A stretch of DNA of 64,000 bases from a bacterium (GTDB taxonomy: Bacteria > Patescibacteriota > Gracilibacteria > JAUYGZ01). The position numbers and the translations under genes are program-made. Positions 2,938 to 41,111 of the stretch are shown here, one piece after another. The stretch's first letter is position 1. Every line of letters starts with the position of its first letter. The DNA lies in contig JAUYGZ010000010.1 in assembly GCA_030690415.1 (NCBI GenBank), forward strand, positions 1 to 64,000, read 5' to 3'. A model generated the notes under the pieces. That model searched no databases. It saw nothing but the letters and a program-made list of their open reading frames with translations, and was not told the DNA's origin.

Positions 2938-4245
2938 ATGACCAACGAAAACAACCCTTTCGAGAGTGCGCAGGAGCTGATCAGAAGCGCGGCACATAAG
3001 TTAAACATCGAAAATTCACTGCTTGAGCAGCTTTTAGAGCCCATGCGAATTCTTGAGGTCAATATTCCGGTTCGGATGAATGACGGAACAACACAGGTCT
3101 TCAAAGGGTTCAGATCGCAGCATAACGACGCAAGAGGTCCTATGAAGGGGGGGATTCGATTCCATCCCGGAGTGACACGAGACGAAGTGGTTGCCTTGTC
3201 GATGTGGATGACCATGAAGTGTGCGACGGTAAATATCCCTCTTGGAGGGGCCAAAGGAGGCATTATTGTAAACCCCAAAGAACTTACGGAAGGGGCTATT
3301 GAGAGGCTATCCAGAGGCTATATTCGGGGTATTTACAAATACCTTGGTCCGACTCAGGACGTTCCGGCACCGGATGTATATACGACACCCCAGATTATGG
3401 CCTGGATGCTCGACGAATACGAAGTCCTGGTGGGAGGAAAAGAGCCCGGGATGATTACCGGGAAGCCGCTGGAAGTAGGTGGAGCCGCGGGAAGGGCATC
3501 GGCCACGGCACAGGGTGGATTTTACTGCATCGAAAAGCTCATTGAAAAGATGAAGCTAAATCGGATGGATACCACGGTCGCCATTCAGGGCTTCGGCAAC
3601 GCCGGTTCTATCATGGCCAAGCTTCTTCACGATGCCGGTTATCGTGTCATTGCCGTGAGCGATTCAAAGGGCGGAGTTTTCCGCAGTCAGGGGATTGATC
3701 CTACGAGAGCACTGGATGTGAAAGCCCAGTCAGCCCACCTAGCCTGCTACGAAGAAGGAAAGGTTTGCGATATCAGCAAGATCAAACAGACCAAAGAGTA
3801 CAAGCCGATCAGCAATGACGAAATTCTCGAGTTAGAAGTCGATATTCTTGTCCCGGCAGCTTTGGAAAACGTTATTACCGGAAAGAATGCTAAGAAAATA
3901 AAAGCGAAAGCCATTGTTGAGTTGGCTAATGGCCCGACCACTCCTGATGCTGACAAGGAGCTTGCGAAGAAGGGGATTATTGTGGTTCCGGATATTCTCG
4001 CAAATGCGGGTGGAGTCACCGTGAGCTACTTCGAACAGGTTCAGAACGCCTATAATTACTATTGGGAGGAGGAAGAAACGTTTCAGAAGCTGAAAAAAAT
4101 CATGGACGAGTCCTTCGCGACGGTTTGGGAGACGAAGGAGAAAGAGCAGGTTGATATGAGAACAGCCGCCTATATGGTAGCTATTAAGCGTGTTTCTGAC
4201 GCCATGCGACTCAGGGGGAGAGCGAAACGATTCGTCCAGGACTAG
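2938..4245 (+). CDS. gdhA: Glutamate dehydrogenase (Glu/Leu/Phe/Val family)
   Basis: A full-length 435-residue amino-acid dehydrogenase that interconverts glutamate with 2-oxoglutarate and ammonia. The N-terminal substrate domain contains GPMKGGIRFHP and the catalytic-lysine motif PLGGAKGGI. The C-terminal Rossmann domain has the dinucleotide fingerprint GFGNAG near residue 220. The 'KPLEVGGAAGR' loop and length fit the hexameric NAD(P) glutamate dehydrogenases rather than the shorter leucine or phenylalanine enzymes. The ATG follows 'ATTCCCTCAT' with no Shine-Dalgarno sequence. A weak promoter, TTGCTG-N17-TAGAGT (2880-2908), precedes it. A strong hairpin follows the stop. Confidence 0.93.
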   Translation: MTNENNPFESAQELIRSAAHKLNIENSLLEQLLEPMRILEVNIPVRMNDGTTQVFKGFRSQHNDARGPMKGGIRFHPGVTRDEVVALSMWMTMKCATVNIPLGGAKGGIIVNPKELTEGAIERLSRGYIRGIYKYLGPTQDVPAPDVYTTPQIMAWMLDEYEVLVGGKEPGMITGKPLEVGGAAGRASATAQGGFYCIEKLIEKMKLNRMDTTVAIQGFGNAGSIMAKLLHDAGYRVIAVSDSKGGVFRSQGIDPTRALDVKAQSAHLACYEEGKVCDISKIKQTKEYKPISNDEILELEVDILVPAALENVITGKNAKKIKAKAIVELANGPTTPDADKELAKKGIIVVPDILANAGGVTVSYFEQVQNAYNYYWEEEETFQKLKKIMDESFATVWETKEKEQVDMRTAAYMVAIKRVSDAMRLRGRAKRFVQD

Positions 4246-4255
4246 CCCTCCAGAC

Positions 4256-4310
4256 TTGACATTCAAGGGTATTCCATTAAACTCTTAGCACTTCACTAAG
4301 AGTTTATTTT
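4256..4310 (+). promoter_or_regulatory. Inverted repeat between gdhA and the SUF operon: terminator and/or Rrf2 operator
   Basis: A perfect 10-bp stem AAACTCTTAG (4279-4288) and CTAAGAGTTT (4296-4305), with a 7-nt loop, is followed by ATTTT, so it can act as the gdhA terminator. Just upstream, TTGACA (4256-4261) and TAAACT (4278-4283) with a 16-nt spacer could form the SUF promoter. In that case the inverted repeat would cover the -10 and start site, as expected for an operator of the regulator encoded 6 nt downstream. The sequence does not decide between the two roles. Confidence 0.55.
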
Positions 4311-4738: not shown

Positions 4739-5553
4739 AAAAGCCATTACTTCAGATCACAAACCTTCACGTTCAGGTTGAAGACAAAGAAATCATTAAG
4801 GGAATCTCCCTCGATCTTCAGCCCGGCAGGATTACCGCTCTGATGGGCCCTAATGGTTCCGGAAAGAGTACGCTTTCCTATGCTCTCAGTGGACATCCGC
4901 GTTACAAGATCACTCAAGGGAGCATTCTCCTGGACGGAGAAGATATCACTGATTTAGGGCCTGATATCAGGTCTCAGAAAGGACTCTTTCTTTCTTTTCA
5001 GTACCCCCAGAGTATTCCGGGAGTCTCCCTCTCCAACTTTCTTCGTGCAGCCTACAACGCTGTGAAGAAGGAGGAAATACGGGTTTTTGACTTTCAAAAA
5101 ATGCTTCGTGAAAAGGCTGAACAGCTGGATGTGCCAGCGGATTTTTTAAAACGCTTCGTCAACGAGGGATTCTCAGGGGGAGAGAAAAAGAAAGTGGAAA
5201 TCCTTCAGGCCCTTGTCCTGGAGCCAAAGGTCATCATCATGGATGAAACAGATTCGGGTCTGGACGTAGATGCTCTGAAGCTGGTGGCGGAGGGAGCTAG
5301 GAAATTACTGACACCGAATTCGGCGATCCTCTTGATCACCCATTATTCCCACATTCTCAATTATCTTAGCCCTGATGTGGTAACGGTTCTAAAAAAAGGA
5401 GAAATTGTCGCGACCGGTGGAGCCGAATTGGCCCAAGAGATAGAGGCAAAGGGATTTGATGGTTTCGGAGGAATGGAGCAAGACAAACCTAAGAGCAGCT
5501 TGATATCAAGTAAAGAAAAGAAAAAGAAAAGCTTGCTTCAGGTTTTAGATTAA
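4735..5553 (+). CDS. sufC: SUF Fe-S assembly ATPase SufC
   Basis: An ABC-type ATPase of 272 residues that drives Fe-S cluster assembly on the SufB-SufD scaffold. Walker A is GPNGSGKST, the signature is FSGGEKKKVEILQAL, and Walker B is VIIMDETDSGLD, the latter two in the SufC-specific form. The ATG at 4735 overlaps the regulator's TGA; a longer frame from 4630 would overlap that gene by about 100 nt and is unlikely. The C-terminal 20 residues are an unusual Lys/Ser-rich tail beyond the normal SufC end. Confidence 0.96.
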   Translation: MKKPLLQITNLHVQVEDKEIIKGISLDLQPGRITALMGPNGSGKSTLSYALSGHPRYKITQGSILLDGEDITDLGPDIRSQKGLFLSFQYPQSIPGVSLSNFLRAAYNAVKKEEIRVFDFQKMLREKAEQLDVPADFLKRFVNEGFSGGEKKKVEILQALVLEPKVIIMDETDSGLDVDALKLVAEGARKLLTPNSAILLITHYSHILNYLSPDVVTVLKKGEIVATGGAELAQEIEAKGFDGFGGMEQDKPKSSLISSKEKKKKSLLQVLD

Positions 5554-35598: not shown

Positions 35599-36669
35599 AT
35601 GGAAACCACTACAATAGCCCCAGGCGGCGCACCAAAACCACAAACGGATGCCGAAAGACAACTGGTACAATTACTCGAGGGAGGTCAGGTAAGGACTGAA
35701 TTCGCTCGAGAATTGCTTCAAGGAATGGGTGAAACGCGTGAGGCCGCTCAAGCTGTCATGGCTTCCGTTGAGAGTGAACCTGATAAACGAGTTTCTTTTG
35801 CTGAAGCTGTTAAACTCCTTGATGGTAAACTCGACTTGGAAGCCGCACGAACCGACGCTGTGAAATCACACGGCCGCTGGGGACTTGTGGATGCTCTCGT
35901 AAAAGCCGGCGCAATTAAGGATGCCTCCGAATATGGTGCTCTTTTTGATAAAGCGACCGTCAGCGAAGCTGATCTTAAAAGAGTGAGTGAAATGGCCGAG
36001 CGCGGTGAAAAAGTTCTACCTATCTTTGATTCCGGCGAAATGACTCCCGATGAGTTGTTTGCCGTACTCTTTACCGAAGGCGGAGTTCCTCATTACACGG
36101 ATAGCTACGGTTTCAAAAACTTGGCGAAACTTCGCAGAATCGATCCAAAAGACATCCATGATTTGGCAAACCTTGCTGGCAAATCGTATGACGAACAAGT
36201 GGCCGCATTTAAGGCCGCTTATAAAGAAGCAGACCCTATGGAGCCTACCGGCGCACGCGTACTCTTTACATCAGATAAACGCGAAGTAACACGTACTGGC
36301 ACTTCCGCTACACAGGATATGCAAGCTTTTGCAAAAGGCGAAATGAGCTTCCTTGATCCTAATGCTGATTTCCTTCGTTATCGCGCTCAAATGGGTGCGG
36401 GACTTCGCAAAATTGCGGGCAGACGCGGTAATTTCGACGGCATGACTGACGAAGATTATCGAGCATTTCTGGACAAAGCCTTCGCCTATAAAACCATTGA
36501 TGAATACATGCCCGATCGTGAAAAAATCACACGTTATCCGAACTACGCTTATGAAAACGGCGGCGTCCCCTTCCTCTGCTTCAATGTTAATTATCGTTGG
36601 GTGGTCGTGCACTACTACGATCCTGCTTATGCTGCTGATTTTCTTGGGAGTCGGCTCTCGCTCGGTTAG
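35599..36669 (+). CDS. Diversity-generating retroelement target protein
   Basis: A 356-residue protein. The N-terminal 220 residues are helical, Ala/Glu-rich and without signal peptide or known domain. The C-terminal part ends in a variable region (VR) coded by 36559-36665, with the pattern GGVPFLCFNVNYRWVVVHYY continuing to LGSRLSLG, as in C-type-lectin-fold targets. The nearly identical template (TR) lies about 300 nt downstream, with adenines at the variable positions. The protein likely displays a binding surface that the retroelement diversified. The ligand is unknown. Confidence 0.85.
   Translation: METTTIAPGGAPKPQTDAERQLVQLLEGGQVRTEFARELLQGMGETREAAQAVMASVESEPDKRVSFAEAVKLLDGKLDLEAARTDAVKSHGRWGLVDALVKAGAIKDASEYGALFDKATVSEADLKRVSEMAERGEKVLPIFDSGEMTPDELFAVLFTEGGVPHYTDSYGFKNLAKLRRIDPKDIHDLANLAGKSYDEQVAAFKAAYKEADPMEPTGARVLFTSDKREVTRTGTSATQDMQAFAKGEMSFLDPNADFLRYRAQMGAGLRKIAGRRGNFDGMTDEDYRAFLDKAFAYKTIDEYMPDREKITRYPNYAYENGGVPFLCFNVNYRWVVVHYYDPAYAADFLGSRLSLG
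36559..36665 (+). repeat. DGR variable region (VR)
   Basis: A 107-nt segment at the 3' end of the target gene, aligned without gaps to the template at 36967-37073. About 18 differences fall at template adenines and only four or five at other bases. The 3' end (CTTGGGAGTCGG...TCTCGCTCGG) is conserved and would serve as the initiation of mutagenic homology. Confidence 0.9.
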
Positions 36670-36966
36670 TTTTCTTTCCTGCAAAAACCTTGGTTCCTTA
36701 GCCCCTTGTACCCTTGGCGCGTAGCGCCTCGCGACAAAAAATTTTGAAACTCGACCGTCCATGCATTATACTTGGGCGGTCTTTTGGTAATGCAGTGGCG
36801 GGCACGCCTTCCACTCCCTTTAGGCAATTGAAAATCAGGAAAGATACTACGTGTTCGGAATCTGGTGAAGGTTTCGGTTTCAAAAAGGCTGAATGCTTCC
36901 AAATAAAATTCAGAAGGACGAGTGATCGGCCTTCGGTGACTCCAGATGGATTCTGAACTTACGTAC
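36670..36966 (+). other. Non-coding spacer between target gene and template region
   Basis: No convincing gene is seen; open frames here have no recognisable protein features. A short hairpin GGCGC-GTA-GCGCC (36716-36728) lies about 50 nt after the VR. A small hairpin near the VR end is known to aid target recognition in some DGRs, although usually closer. The segment before the TR (about 36870-36960) may be leader of the template RNA. Confidence 0.5.
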
Positions 36967-37073
36967 GGCGGCGTCCCTAATCTCAACTTCAATCCTAATA
37001 ATCGTAAGGTGAACGTGAACTACTACAATCCTGATAATGCTAATGATAATCTTGGGAGTCGGATCTCGCTCGG
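36967..37073 (+). ncRNA. DGR template region (TR)
   Basis: A 107-nt near-copy of the VR that is rich in AAT/AAC codons (for example AAT CTC AAC TTC AAT versus TTC CTC TGC TTC AAT). It would be transcribed as the template RNA copied with adenine-specific mutagenesis. It is followed within 22 nt by a rho-independent terminator on the same strand, consistent with a discrete RNA. The TR sits between the target gene and avd. Confidence 0.88.
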
Positions 37074-37094
37074 CAGTCTCTTTCTTCACTTTCT

Positions 37095-37118
37095 AGCCCC
37101 GCTCAGCGGGGCTTTTTT
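37095..37118 (+). terminator. Rho-independent terminator of the TR transcript
   Basis: A perfect 8-bp stem AGCCCCGC-TCA-GCGGGGCT followed by a T-run (37113-37118). The T-run overlaps the stop codon of avd on the other strand. Confidence 0.88.
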
Positions 37119-37461
37119 AACTCATTGATTTAATCCAGCCGCCTAGCATTTTTCCGATCTCATTTATGTGACCTTGGAAAAGAGTGTATTTTTTAAGATC
37201 AATGGCTCTGATTTCTTTCATGAGTCGTATGAAGATTTTTAAAGTGTCGAGTTGGAGACTGACTTGATAGAGAACGGTCGTCTTGTTTTCTCGTCTCGAC
37301 TTGCTCGCCCTTATTGTCTGCTCTATAAGGTCGAGTATCAGGTTCTCGCATCGTTGGCCGATTCCGAAACGATCTTTTTTCGGTAAATTACTCGAGCATT
37401 GATAAAAAGCCTTGTAAAGTTCGTATATTTTTTGGAGTATGGGCAGGTCTTCACTCATCAT
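37117..37461 (-). CDS. avd: Avd-like DGR accessory protein (four-helix bundle)
   Basis: A 114-residue helical protein of the Avd/bAvd type. The pattern 'LQKIYELYKAFYQCSSNLPKKDRFGIGQRCENLILDLIE' and the ending 'INEIGKMLGGWIKS' are typical of the accessory variability determinant. Avd binds the reverse transcriptase and template RNA. It is encoded on the strand opposite to target, TR and RT remnant, and its start is 8 nt from the RT start, head to head. That orientation is unusual for a DGR. Confidence 0.85.
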   Translation of the reverse strand: MMSEDLPILQKIYELYKAFYQCSSNLPKKDRFGIGQRCENLILDLIEQTIRASKSRRENKTTVLYQVSLQLDTLKIFIRLMKEIRAIDLKKYTLFQGHINEIGKMLGGWIKSMS

Positions 37462-37469
37462 GATTTTTT

Positions 37470-37966
37470 ATGCAATATGCGGATTTGGTAAGTCCCGAAA
37501 ATATTTTTGTCGCCTTCGACGAGTTTAAACGTGGGAAGCGAAAAAAGGAAGAGTGGATTTTTTGGGATATGTTTGTTTCCCTTATTGCCGCACCATTCGA
37601 ACAAAGACCAAGAAAAGAATGTTGAAAAAACTAAATCAACGAAAAAATGAAATGCAAATGAAGGAAATAACAGCCGAGAGTTTTAATCAAACGTTGCAAA
37701 GTTATCTCGGGCTTTTGAAGCATGCAAACTCACGTCGTGTGGTAAAAAAACTGGAAAGTTTGGCTGGCTTTAAATCTTTGGAAGAAATTGAAGGGCTTTA
37801 TCTGAAGCGGTCCACCATGTCAAAAAAGCATGCATTACTATCCCATCAAGAATTCCGGAATTTCTCTGTGAGAAAAATCAGGATCTCCAGCAAACCCCCT
37901 GGTAGGGACAAAAGCCGCATTTCTTCTCGTCGAACTGTTCCAGTCGTTCAAACTGTAACGACTTAA
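37470..37966 (+). pseudogene. DGR reverse transcriptase with catalytic core deleted
   Basis: The ATG at 37470 opens a frame whose first 28 codons (MQYADLVSPENIFVAFDEFK then RGKRKKEE) match the N-terminus of DGR reverse transcriptases. From 37553, in another frame, follows the RT end: VDFLGYVCFPYCRTIRTKTK then KRMLKKL and 'LQSYLGLLKHANSRRVVKKL'. The entire fingers/palm part with the catalytic aspartates (YxDD box) is missing, about 200 or more residues compared with the family. The junction is out of frame. The C-terminal frame runs on to 37966, antisense to the helicase gene end. Confidence 0.85.
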
Positions 37967-40900
37967 TATTTTTCCAGGTTTCTCCCAGCAGTTTTTCATA
38001 CTGCTGAACCATGGTTGGAGTGAGTTCTACAGTTTTGTTCTGAAAAGTTCCTTCTTCCAGGCCATACTTTTTCACGGTCTCTTTGACGGGATCCAGGAAG
38101 ACCAGCTGACCGCTGGTCACCCGAAGCGAGCGATGCCCCCGTTCGTACAAAAGCTTGTATGCCACCAGTTGTCGCAGATAGTCATCGCAGTCTTGGGATT
38201 CCAAATCACCGCAATTCTCAATCGCCTTGATGTGCTTGTCAGGTTCTCCGGTTTTGTAGTCAATCACCCGTACCATTCCCGTCTTCTGATCCAGCTCCAC
38301 TTTGTCAAACTGTCCTGAAAAAACTATGCCGTCCTGAAGTTTTCGGGATATCTTGCGCTCCAGCTCATAGGGTTTTTCAGCCCCCTGTTCCAACACTTGT
38401 CCATACCAGCGCATCGCGTCTTCAAGCTTGTCTTCACATCCCTTTCGGATAGCCTGGTCGACACCATGCCAATCCAGTTCCTGAAAAAATTGTTCTTCGA
38501 AGTACTTCAGTGGAGGGAGCTGTCCCTCATTCATATAACGGCGGAAACTTTTTTCCAGAGCTTTGTGGACGCACTGCCCATAGATGAGCGCCTGCGTTTT
38601 CGGTTGGGGAGCCTTCAAGAGATTGTGATACAAAAATTCCCGATGGCACTTCAAATACCTGTTCACGGATGAAGGGCTCAGAGAAATATCTTCTACTAGT
38701 CCCTGAAGAGTATCACGGCTGAATTCAACAGGGTCCGGTTGGGGTGATTTCTTCAGCAATTGAATAAGCGTTTCCTCTTCGGATATCGGAGTCGATCTCT
38801 CAGGAGCAAGTCCAAGAGTGTTCAAAAACTGGGAGAAAACCTGTTTGTCCTGCGGCGCAGCCGTGAAGACCAATCGGTCTTTGGCCCTGGTCGCGGCCAC
38901 ATAAAAGAGTCGGTTCTCATCATCGTTGTGCAGTCTTTTTTCCGCTTCCTTATCAGTGATTTTTTCCTGACCGATCAGGAGCTCATGGGGAAGTGGAATC
39001 TTATTCGTTTGCTCTCTCTTCGGCCAGGACTTGTCCTGAATACAGAAGGGGATGAAGACGTGTTTGAATTCCAGCCCCTTGGAGCCATGCGCCGTCAGGA
39101 TGTGCGCTCCTTCCTGCGCGCTCGAGACCATCTCGCCCCGCAAGGCGATGGAGTGTTTTTCCAGTTGATCCAGTGCCAGGACATATCCATCGGCCATAAT
39201 GCCGGGATTGGCCTGATTGGATTTTTTCAGGTTCTCCACAAAACTGCTGATGGATCGCAGCTCACGCAAACGAACGATTTCGTGATTTTCATAGTTCGCC
39301 AAAATATAATCCACCATTCCTGAATCCTGAAGGAAGACCATCATGAGTCCGAAGACGGGATGACTGGAAGCACGATCCACAAGATGTCTGATAGTCCAGG
39401 CGGCTCGATGAAAGCGGTTGGGATTTTTGAAATTCAGCTCGGAACAAATACTCAGCTGGTGGGTTTCCTCTTCCGTGGGAGCCTCATGTTCCCGGGATAT
39501 GACTCGAGGTGGTGACGGAAACCGAAGCAAAAGTTCCGAAAAGAAAGAAGGTTTACCAACGGTCTGGAGCTGAGAATCGCGATGTTCTCTTCCGGAAGCA
39601 GGTTCCCCCAAATCCATCGAAACCTGTGCCTCTTCCAGACGATACTCCTGCGGCATTTTATTCGTTTTCCGCTTGTGCCTGGTGCGATAAGCAGATTTTT
39701 TTTCGCTCACGTAAGCTGCGAAACTCATCAGATCATGATGGTCTAGTTGCCAAAAATCACTCAGCAGGGTTTCGAAGACCAGGAGGTCTTTCTGTTCAAA
39801 ATCCAGATCTCCTACGGCAAGTTTCAGGATTTTCAGAAGTTGCTGGATACGAAACTCTCCGCGAATATCTTCTTTCCCATCAGTTGAATAAGGGATGCCA
39901 GCCTGCAAGAAGGCTTCAATGACATCCTGTGCTTGTTTTCGTGTCCGTACCAGCACGGCAGTATCATTCCACTCTTCCCGATCCAGTTTTTTCATTTCCC
40001 TGACCAAAAAGGTCAGCTCTTCCTCCAGGGTTCCAAAGCGATAGGATTGAACATCTGACTGCCCTACGGACTCCCTGATTGATTTCAGGTCTTTATCCAT
40101 GACCCGTTCCTCGAGGGGAATTTGTCGAATGATTTCCGTAGTTTTCGTCAGGATTTCTGGCGTGGAGCGATAGTTGTGACGCAGGACGATTTTTTTCAAG
40201 GGTGGATAGAGCCCTTCAAAGATTTGAAAATTCCCAACGCTGGCCCCCTGAAACCGATAGATCGACTGATCATCATCTCCAACCACGCAGATATTGGAGC
40301 CGGCTTCGGAGAAGAAAAGTCGTAAGAGCTTGAGCTGAGCTCCATTCGTATCCTGAAACTCATCCACCATGACATATTGAAACTGTTCCTGAACTTTCGC
40401 GAGAAGATCCGGTTCACTTTCCAGTGTTCTTATCGCGAGCAGAATCATATCGTCGTAGTCATAGCGACCACGCTTGTCAAAAACAGGAGTATTCGCGTTT
40501 GGACTCTTTGATTCTTCATAAGCTTCGTAAACCTTCGCGAAAGCCTGAAGACGTTTGAGATGTTTTTCCTCGACCACTTTCCCGTCCGCTTTGAATCGTC
40601 TCAAAAAATCAGAAACGATCTCAGGGGTGATGCCGTCTCTCTTCAGGGTGCTGATATTCGCTTCGATGTCACCACGGTACAGGTAAGGCGCGTTGGGGTT
40701 TCTTATTGCTTTGACATCTCCGAGGTGGTCGATCAGGTATTCGAGCAGATTGATCCGTTCCAGATCGGTCATCTCAATGCGATCGCCTTTCGCAGTGGCC
40801 GCTTCTTCCGAATCGGTAATCAAAGTATTCGCGAATCCATGAAAGGTCTCCACGACCACATCATATCCAGCCGGTCCCATCAGCTTCGCGAGGCGTTCAC

Positions 40901-41111
40901 GCATGGCTTTCACTCCTGCGTTCGTATAGGTCAGGATCAGGATGTTGCTGGGGTAGAGATCTGTTTGCCTCAAAATGTTTGCCGTTCGTACGGAGAGCAG
41001 CTGCGTCTTACCAGTTCCAGGCCCCGCGAGTACCATGAGAGGGCCTTCTATGGAATCAACCGCCTTTTTCTGCTCAGGGTTGAGTTGCTGGTAAAAAGAG
41101 TCAATAGACAT
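37878..41111 (-). CDS. UvrD/PcrA-type helicase with C-terminal PD-(D/E)XK nuclease and Fe-S cysteines
   Basis: A 1077-residue superfamily 1 helicase-nuclease. The helicase motifs are AGPGTGKT, 'VMVDEFQDTN', GDDDQSIYRFQGAS, 'TAHGSKGLEFKHVFIP' and 'LFYVAATRAKDRL'. The C-terminal quarter contains a RecB-like nuclease ('GQFDKVELDQKTGMVRVIDYKTGE'). A cysteine in 'YLKCHREF' plus CGFCPYQGVC at the end would ligate a 4Fe-4S cluster, as in AddB. It probably processes broken DNA ends as a single-chain AddAB/RecBCD substitute. It is the last gene of the minus-strand cluster starting near 45.2 kb. Confidence 0.92.
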   Translation of the reverse strand: MSIDSFYQQLNPEQKKAVDSIEGPLMVLAGPGTGKTQLLSVRTANILRQTDLYPSNILILTYTNAGVKAMRERLAKLMGPAGYDVVVETFHGFANTLITDSEEAATAKGDRIEMTDLERINLLEYLIDHLGDVKAIRNPNAPYLYRGDIEANISTLKRDGITPEIVSDFLRRFKADGKVVEEKHLKRLQAFAKVYEAYEESKSPNANTPVFDKRGRYDYDDMILLAIRTLESEPDLLAKVQEQFQYVMVDEFQDTNGAQLKLLRLFFSEAGSNICVVGDDDQSIYRFQGASVGNFQIFEGLYPPLKKIVLRHNYRSTPEILTKTTEIIRQIPLEERVMDKDLKSIRESVGQSDVQSYRFGTLEEELTFLVREMKKLDREEWNDTAVLVRTRKQAQDVIEAFLQAGIPYSTDGKEDIRGEFRIQQLLKILKLAVGDLDFEQKDLLVFETLLSDFWQLDHHDLMSFAAYVSEKKSAYRTRHKRKTNKMPQEYRLEEAQVSMDLGEPASGREHRDSQLQTVGKPSFFSELLLRFPSPPRVISREHEAPTEEETHQLSICSELNFKNPNRFHRAAWTIRHLVDRASSHPVFGLMMVFLQDSGMVDYILANYENHEIVRLRELRSISSFVENLKKSNQANPGIMADGYVLALDQLEKHSIALRGEMVSSAQEGAHILTAHGSKGLEFKHVFIPFCIQDKSWPKREQTNKIPLPHELLIGQEKITDKEAEKRLHNDDENRLFYVAATRAKDRLVFTAAPQDKQVFSQFLNTLGLAPERSTPISEEETLIQLLKKSPQPDPVEFSRDTLQGLVEDISLSPSSVNRYLKCHREFLYHNLLKAPQPKTQALIYGQCVHKALEKSFRRYMNEGQLPPLKYFEEQFFQELDWHGVDQAIRKGCEDKLEDAMRWYGQVLEQGAEKPYELERKISRKLQDGIVFSGQFDKVELDQKTGMVRVIDYKTGEPDKHIKAIENCGDLESQDCDDYLRQLVAYKLLYERGHRSLRVTSGQLVFLDPVKETVKKYGLEEGTFQNKTVELTPTMVQQYEKLLGETWKNIKSLQFERLEQFDEKKCGFCPYQGVCWRS

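Follow-up and report, generated by a model that had tools for sequence, protein, structure and literature searches.

Deletion of the reverse transcriptase core in a Patescibacteria diversity-generating retroelement and repeat-associated frame changes in its relatives

What becomes of a diversity-generating retroelement (DGR) when its reverse transcriptase (RT) gene is broken and the rest of the cassette is kept? The question is raised by a chromosomal DGR at positions 35599–37966 of the window, the 64,000-nucleotide stretch analyzed here, from a Peregrinibacteria-like Patescibacteria genome (G000) that is 98.8% complete in 30 contigs. The first-pass annotation offered three accounts of this locus: an element frozen after diversification, a second RT working in trans, and a population in which some cells carry the full gene. 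The first is the best supported of the three. Very probably, adenine-directed mutagenic retrohoming first diversified the target of this DGR, and one frame-breaking internal deletion of about 703 bp then removed RT function.

Cassette layout and the remnants of the reverse transcriptase

The target gene (35599–36669, forward strand) is an ORF of 356 aa with the variable repeat (VR) at its C-terminus, and the VR (36557–36665, forward) ends 4 bp short of the end of the ORF. The template repeat (TR; 36965–37073, forward) lies 0.3 kb downstream of the target gene and matches the VR without gaps over 109 bp; of the 22 mismatches, 18 fall opposite TR adenines and the other 4 at non-A positions. Exactly one TR and one VR are present in the genome. 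An intrinsic-terminator-like hairpin with an 8-bp stem and a T tail follows the 3′ side of the TR (37095–37113, forward), and the DGR accessory gene avd is encoded on the reverse strand (37117–37461). Its conserved 114-aa product matches bAvd in Pfam (E=2.4e-24) and Avd in PHROG (E=3e-29), as expected of a locus of DGR origin; avd occurs once in the genome, and comparison with the avd of L021, the closest relative found, gives dN of 0.11 with saturated dS. The ORF, the TR/VR match, the hairpin and the bAvd match thus bear out the description of target, VR, TR, terminator and avd as intact. The target protein is homologous to the targets of L021 (34% identity) and of a second relative, L022 (29%), and has neither a Pfam nor a PDB match. 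The structure model in which a C-type-lectin fold around the VR was sought rests on a three-sequence alignment and is of poor confidence (pLDDT 42.5), too low for the fold to be read from it.

The RT gene is divergent from avd, with the two start codons 8 bp apart (37461–37470); in relatives such as L002 the 5′ ends of avd and RT overlap. From 37470 the RT reads MQYADLVSPENIFVAFDEFKRGKRKKEE, an N-terminal remnant of 28 residues (37470–37552, forward) with 74% identity to residues 1–31 of the L021 RT, and after a change of frame the C-terminal sequence VDFLGYVCFPYCRTIRTKTKKRM... is encountered. This second remnant (37553–37801, forward), about 83 residues long, matches the L021 RT and a PHROG reverse transcriptase profile (E=2.5e-15). 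It belongs to a 137-aa ORF in which RT homology stops near 37801 and which runs on to 37966. This ORF shares its tail (37878–37966) with the 3′ end of a UvrD-like helicase gene (37878–41111) that runs toward it.

The nature of the lesion is defined by comparison with L021 (JACPLZ010000017.1), a Peregrinibacteria MAG with an intact RT ORF and an avd that is 82% identical. By blastn, window positions 36659–37552 align with positions 3382–4266 of the L021 reverse complement at 80% identity, and 37553–37731 with positions 4970–5148 at 71%. Between these blocks 703 L021 bases are absent across a single clean junction at 37552/37553 (forward), which alters the frame; with a reference only about 80% identical, neither the length of the deletion nor its ancestral ends can be given exactly. 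A tblastn search of the whole genome with the L021 RT recovered two pieces only, residues 1–31 and 257–342, the latter at 59% identity, and residues 32–256, YxDD included, have no counterpart there. Two claims made from sequence alone, that the N-terminal 28 residues and a C-terminal part are fused out of frame and that the catalytic core with the YxDD palm is gone, are therefore upheld. The palm motifs expected of an active DGR, GxPxGNxTSQ and YxDD, are missing from this genome, and PF00078 found no match in it but did match in control genomes.

Deletion, freezing and the age of the loss

Since no repeat is found at the deletion ends, the deletion would have arisen by illegitimate recombination: there is no in-register direct repeat across the breakpoints, and within 40 bp the longest string shared by the corresponding L021 neighborhoods is 6 bp. 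The same observation bears on whether the junction is a false join made by the assembler inside the RT gene. Only a single assembly represents this locus, which leaves room for such an error; however, with a longest shared string of 6 bp, out of register, repeat collapse cannot account for the join, the contig is free of Ns at the junction, and both of its sides match the same relative, L021, in order. Any assembler would, moreover, have needed reads carrying the junction. We consider an artefact highly improbable, and the assembly collapse raised in the first-pass annotation is not borne out.

Equally improbable is an RT supplied in trans by another element, a plasmid or a phage. TR, avd and VR are all intact and could be used by a compatible enzyme, but DGR RTs act with their own Avd and their own TR RNA. 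The genome search revealed no RT of any kind beyond the two remnants, and no other avd, TR or VR was detected in the 98.8% of the genome that is covered (1.2% may be missing). Two genomes of the same family, G001 and G002, likewise contain no RT of the DGR kind and no avd.

In the reconstituted Bordetella phage BPP-1 system the RT, Avd and TR are all required, and a DGR whose RT carries a mutated active site is inactive (PMC12875486). The proposed sequence of events begins with a chromosomal DGR whose target would have been varied through mutagenic retrohoming directed at adenines, after which a single internal deletion would have removed the palm and broken the frame. Without a palm no cDNA would be made, and so the target is probably now frozen at the current VR. 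If so, the locus is a natural RT-null control in which the VR should stop changing opposite TR adenines.

How long ago the RT was lost can be gauged from what is left of it. The C-terminal remnant has kept each of the 13 columns in which the other RTs (76 sequences) reach 84% conservation or more, its mean identity to these 76 RTs is 0.400 compared with 0.411 for L021, and a relative-rate test, which replaced dN/dS dating under relaxed selection because dS is near saturation, showed no acceleration. The preserved columns and the near-equal identity indicate that the loss is apparently recent rather than old. The mismatches between TR and VR could point the other way. Four of 78 non-A positions differ, the second highest value among 73 loci, and this rate would be consistent with a freeze of longer standing than the remnant indicates. 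L021, with its RT intact, has 3 such mismatches, and all 4 in the window lie within the first 30 bp of the VR, a segment that replacement may not reach. In our assessment of these sequence comparisons the remnant test appears to outweigh the mismatch rate, and inactivation that is both recent and irreversible is the best reading of the locus.

A recent loss would also fit a mixed population, in which some cells keep the full RT and the assembler followed the deletion path. MAG assemblies are population composites, and other Patescibacteria DGR RTs occur both on-frame and off-frame. An intact allele may coexist with the deleted one, a point against the favored account. The deleted part, however, has no second copy or fragment in the 30 contigs, and we regard a mixed population as unlikely, though less so than a false join or an enzyme in trans.

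State of the reverse transcriptase across Patescibacteria DGRs

The wider incidence of RT breakage was surveyed with avd as bait, a choice blind to RT state. The best 80 avd loci among genome contigs, all from MAG or draft assemblies of many projects, were scanned with an RT profile, and percentages describe these best 80 matches. The RT runs off the contig end in 3 loci (L053, L069, L074) and is split or frame-broken in 21. A slippage-prone repeat, mostly (GA)n but also (CA)n or a G-run, is found in the RT gene in 18 of the 21 broken loci, in one of which (L095) it occurs together with a stop codon. Most repeats sit at profile position ~170, just upstream of GxPxGNxTSQ. RTs that are off-frame with a repeat near this motif include the window's relative L022, which carries (CA)13, as well as L028, L033, L050, L051, L052, L055, L057, L061, L063, L064, L071, L083, L086, L089 and L100. 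The frame is open despite a repeat in five loci (L027, L039, L078, L097 and L098). L027, L039 and L078, together with L113, are on-frame with the repeat just upstream of the motif; the L027 and L039 repeats are translated as RERERE, in a loop modeled with low confidence although the model as a whole is good (mean pLDDT 83). The same is seen in a second set of 380 Patescibacteria genomes, possibly overlapping with the first set: a search for (GA)8 with the motif after it hit 12 of them and the reversed control hit none; the matches include L113, on-frame, and L108, L116 and L253, off-frame.

The repeats are concentrated in RT genes. Long tracts, defined as dinucleotides of at least 7 units or G/C runs of at least 9, number 22 per 85.9 kb of RT genes versus 5 per 1,099 kb of flanks, a ~56-fold enrichment (p=5e-21) with the flank counts treating bases as independent. 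None occur in 80 viral-contig RTs with a similar motif (89.1 kb), and viral contigs showed no (GA)n preceding the RT motif. A tree of 83 RTs requires no fewer than 15 changes of the repeat character, which has therefore often been gained and lost. Off-frame and intact-RT loci are alike in the share of TR/VR mismatches at non-adenine positions (3.7% versus 3.9%; per-locus rates, p=0.52), which argues that the off-frame RTs worked until very recently. Off-frame and on-frame loci number 18 and 5, a ratio compatible with the 2:1 that random frames would give (p=0.28). As to changes in repeat length, L118 (G295) and L050 do not differ and probably represent a single genome, and among the family relatives of G190 there is only one off-frame homologue, 75% identical. 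Programmed ribosomal frameshifting in the split RTs was considered and ruled out: the frame changes at long dinucleotide or G tracts that vary in unit and length, and there is no conserved slippery heptamer.

Other lesions and repeats were observed in these loci. Repeats elsewhere in DGR RTs comprise (TG)n at L004:1118–1140, where the RT is split, a G-run at L003:2003–2010, beyond which the RT is missing, G8 in the L036 RT, and G10 near the start of the L097 RT. Long repeats also lie near avd or elsewhere in the flanks (L094:1438, L041:5758, L052:15580, L034:8845), and avd or the targets might perhaps be switched too. RTs are broken as well by an in-frame stop (L045, L095), an internal deletion (L060) and a tail frameshift (L091), and in L006 the part joining the N- and C-terminal halves is disrupted. 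In L008, L009 and L019, which are of the same class, the RT pieces share one frame with single stops between them, and the avd genes of L008 and L019 have one internal TGA each; instead of decay, these stops may mark codons where TGA means glycine (table 25).

Taken across genomes, rather than within one population, the pattern looks like phase variation of the Patescibacteria DGR RT by repeat slippage. Switching off of the RT is apparently common in these elements, reversible elsewhere through SSR slippage and irreversible in the window. On a wider reading, DGR hypermutation would be a switchable trait of Patescibacteria: the RT gene would repeatedly gain slippage-prone repeats, mostly in a single loop just ahead of GxPxGNxTSQ, that flip its frame, lineages would by turns diversify a target and hold on to one variant, and the window would show where that pressure to silence the RT becomes irreversible. 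We judge this proposition to be evenly balanced. The remnants in the window contain no slippage-prone repeat, and so a link between its deletion and the switching pattern is something we only infer. In the titles and abstracts searched, a scope outside which most subscription journals fall, there was no report of DGR phase variation or of SSR, slipped-strand or frameshift switching, and at that level RT phase variation as an on/off switch for targeted hypermutation looks undescribed. The apparently phase-variable RT of the relatives is a more valuable lead than the window itself. If true, it would constitute a heritable on/off switch for targeted hypermutation and might explain how a target variant worth keeping escapes destruction and how a DGR can survive periods in the off state. 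Surveys that require a full-length RT ORF could then miss part of the DGRs, since 21 of the 80 loci surveyed would be taken for broken ones.

Relation to known systems

The locus in the window is an ordinary inactivation of a known kind, here through an internal deletion. The novelty implied at first pass was overstated: the DiGReF study of 2012 already reported inactivated RTs with intact VR and TR in Ruminococcus gnavus, Acaryochloris marina and Bacteroides sp. 9_1_42FAA (PMC3521204). As in the window, the RT gene is broken in those cases, TR, VR and target are kept, and inactivation was judged recent; in contrast, their lesions are a nonsense mutation, an insertion element or a frameshift rather than an internal palm deletion, and their VR mutations are A-only whereas the window has 4 non-A mismatches (PMC3521204).

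The DGR of L021 shares the order target, TR, avd on the opposite strand and RT, but its RT is intact and its similarity to the window ends at the DGR. The BPP-1 type DGR likewise has the same list of parts (TR, VR, Avd and RT) and adenine-directed changes; the window differs from it in being chromosomal, in carrying avd on the opposite strand and in the destruction of its RT. Known phase-variable contingency loci mostly switch surface or restriction genes. It is the relatives, not the window, that resemble these loci, with (GA)n, (CA)n and G-runs setting the RT frame, and they differ from them in that the switched gene is a mutator enzyme.
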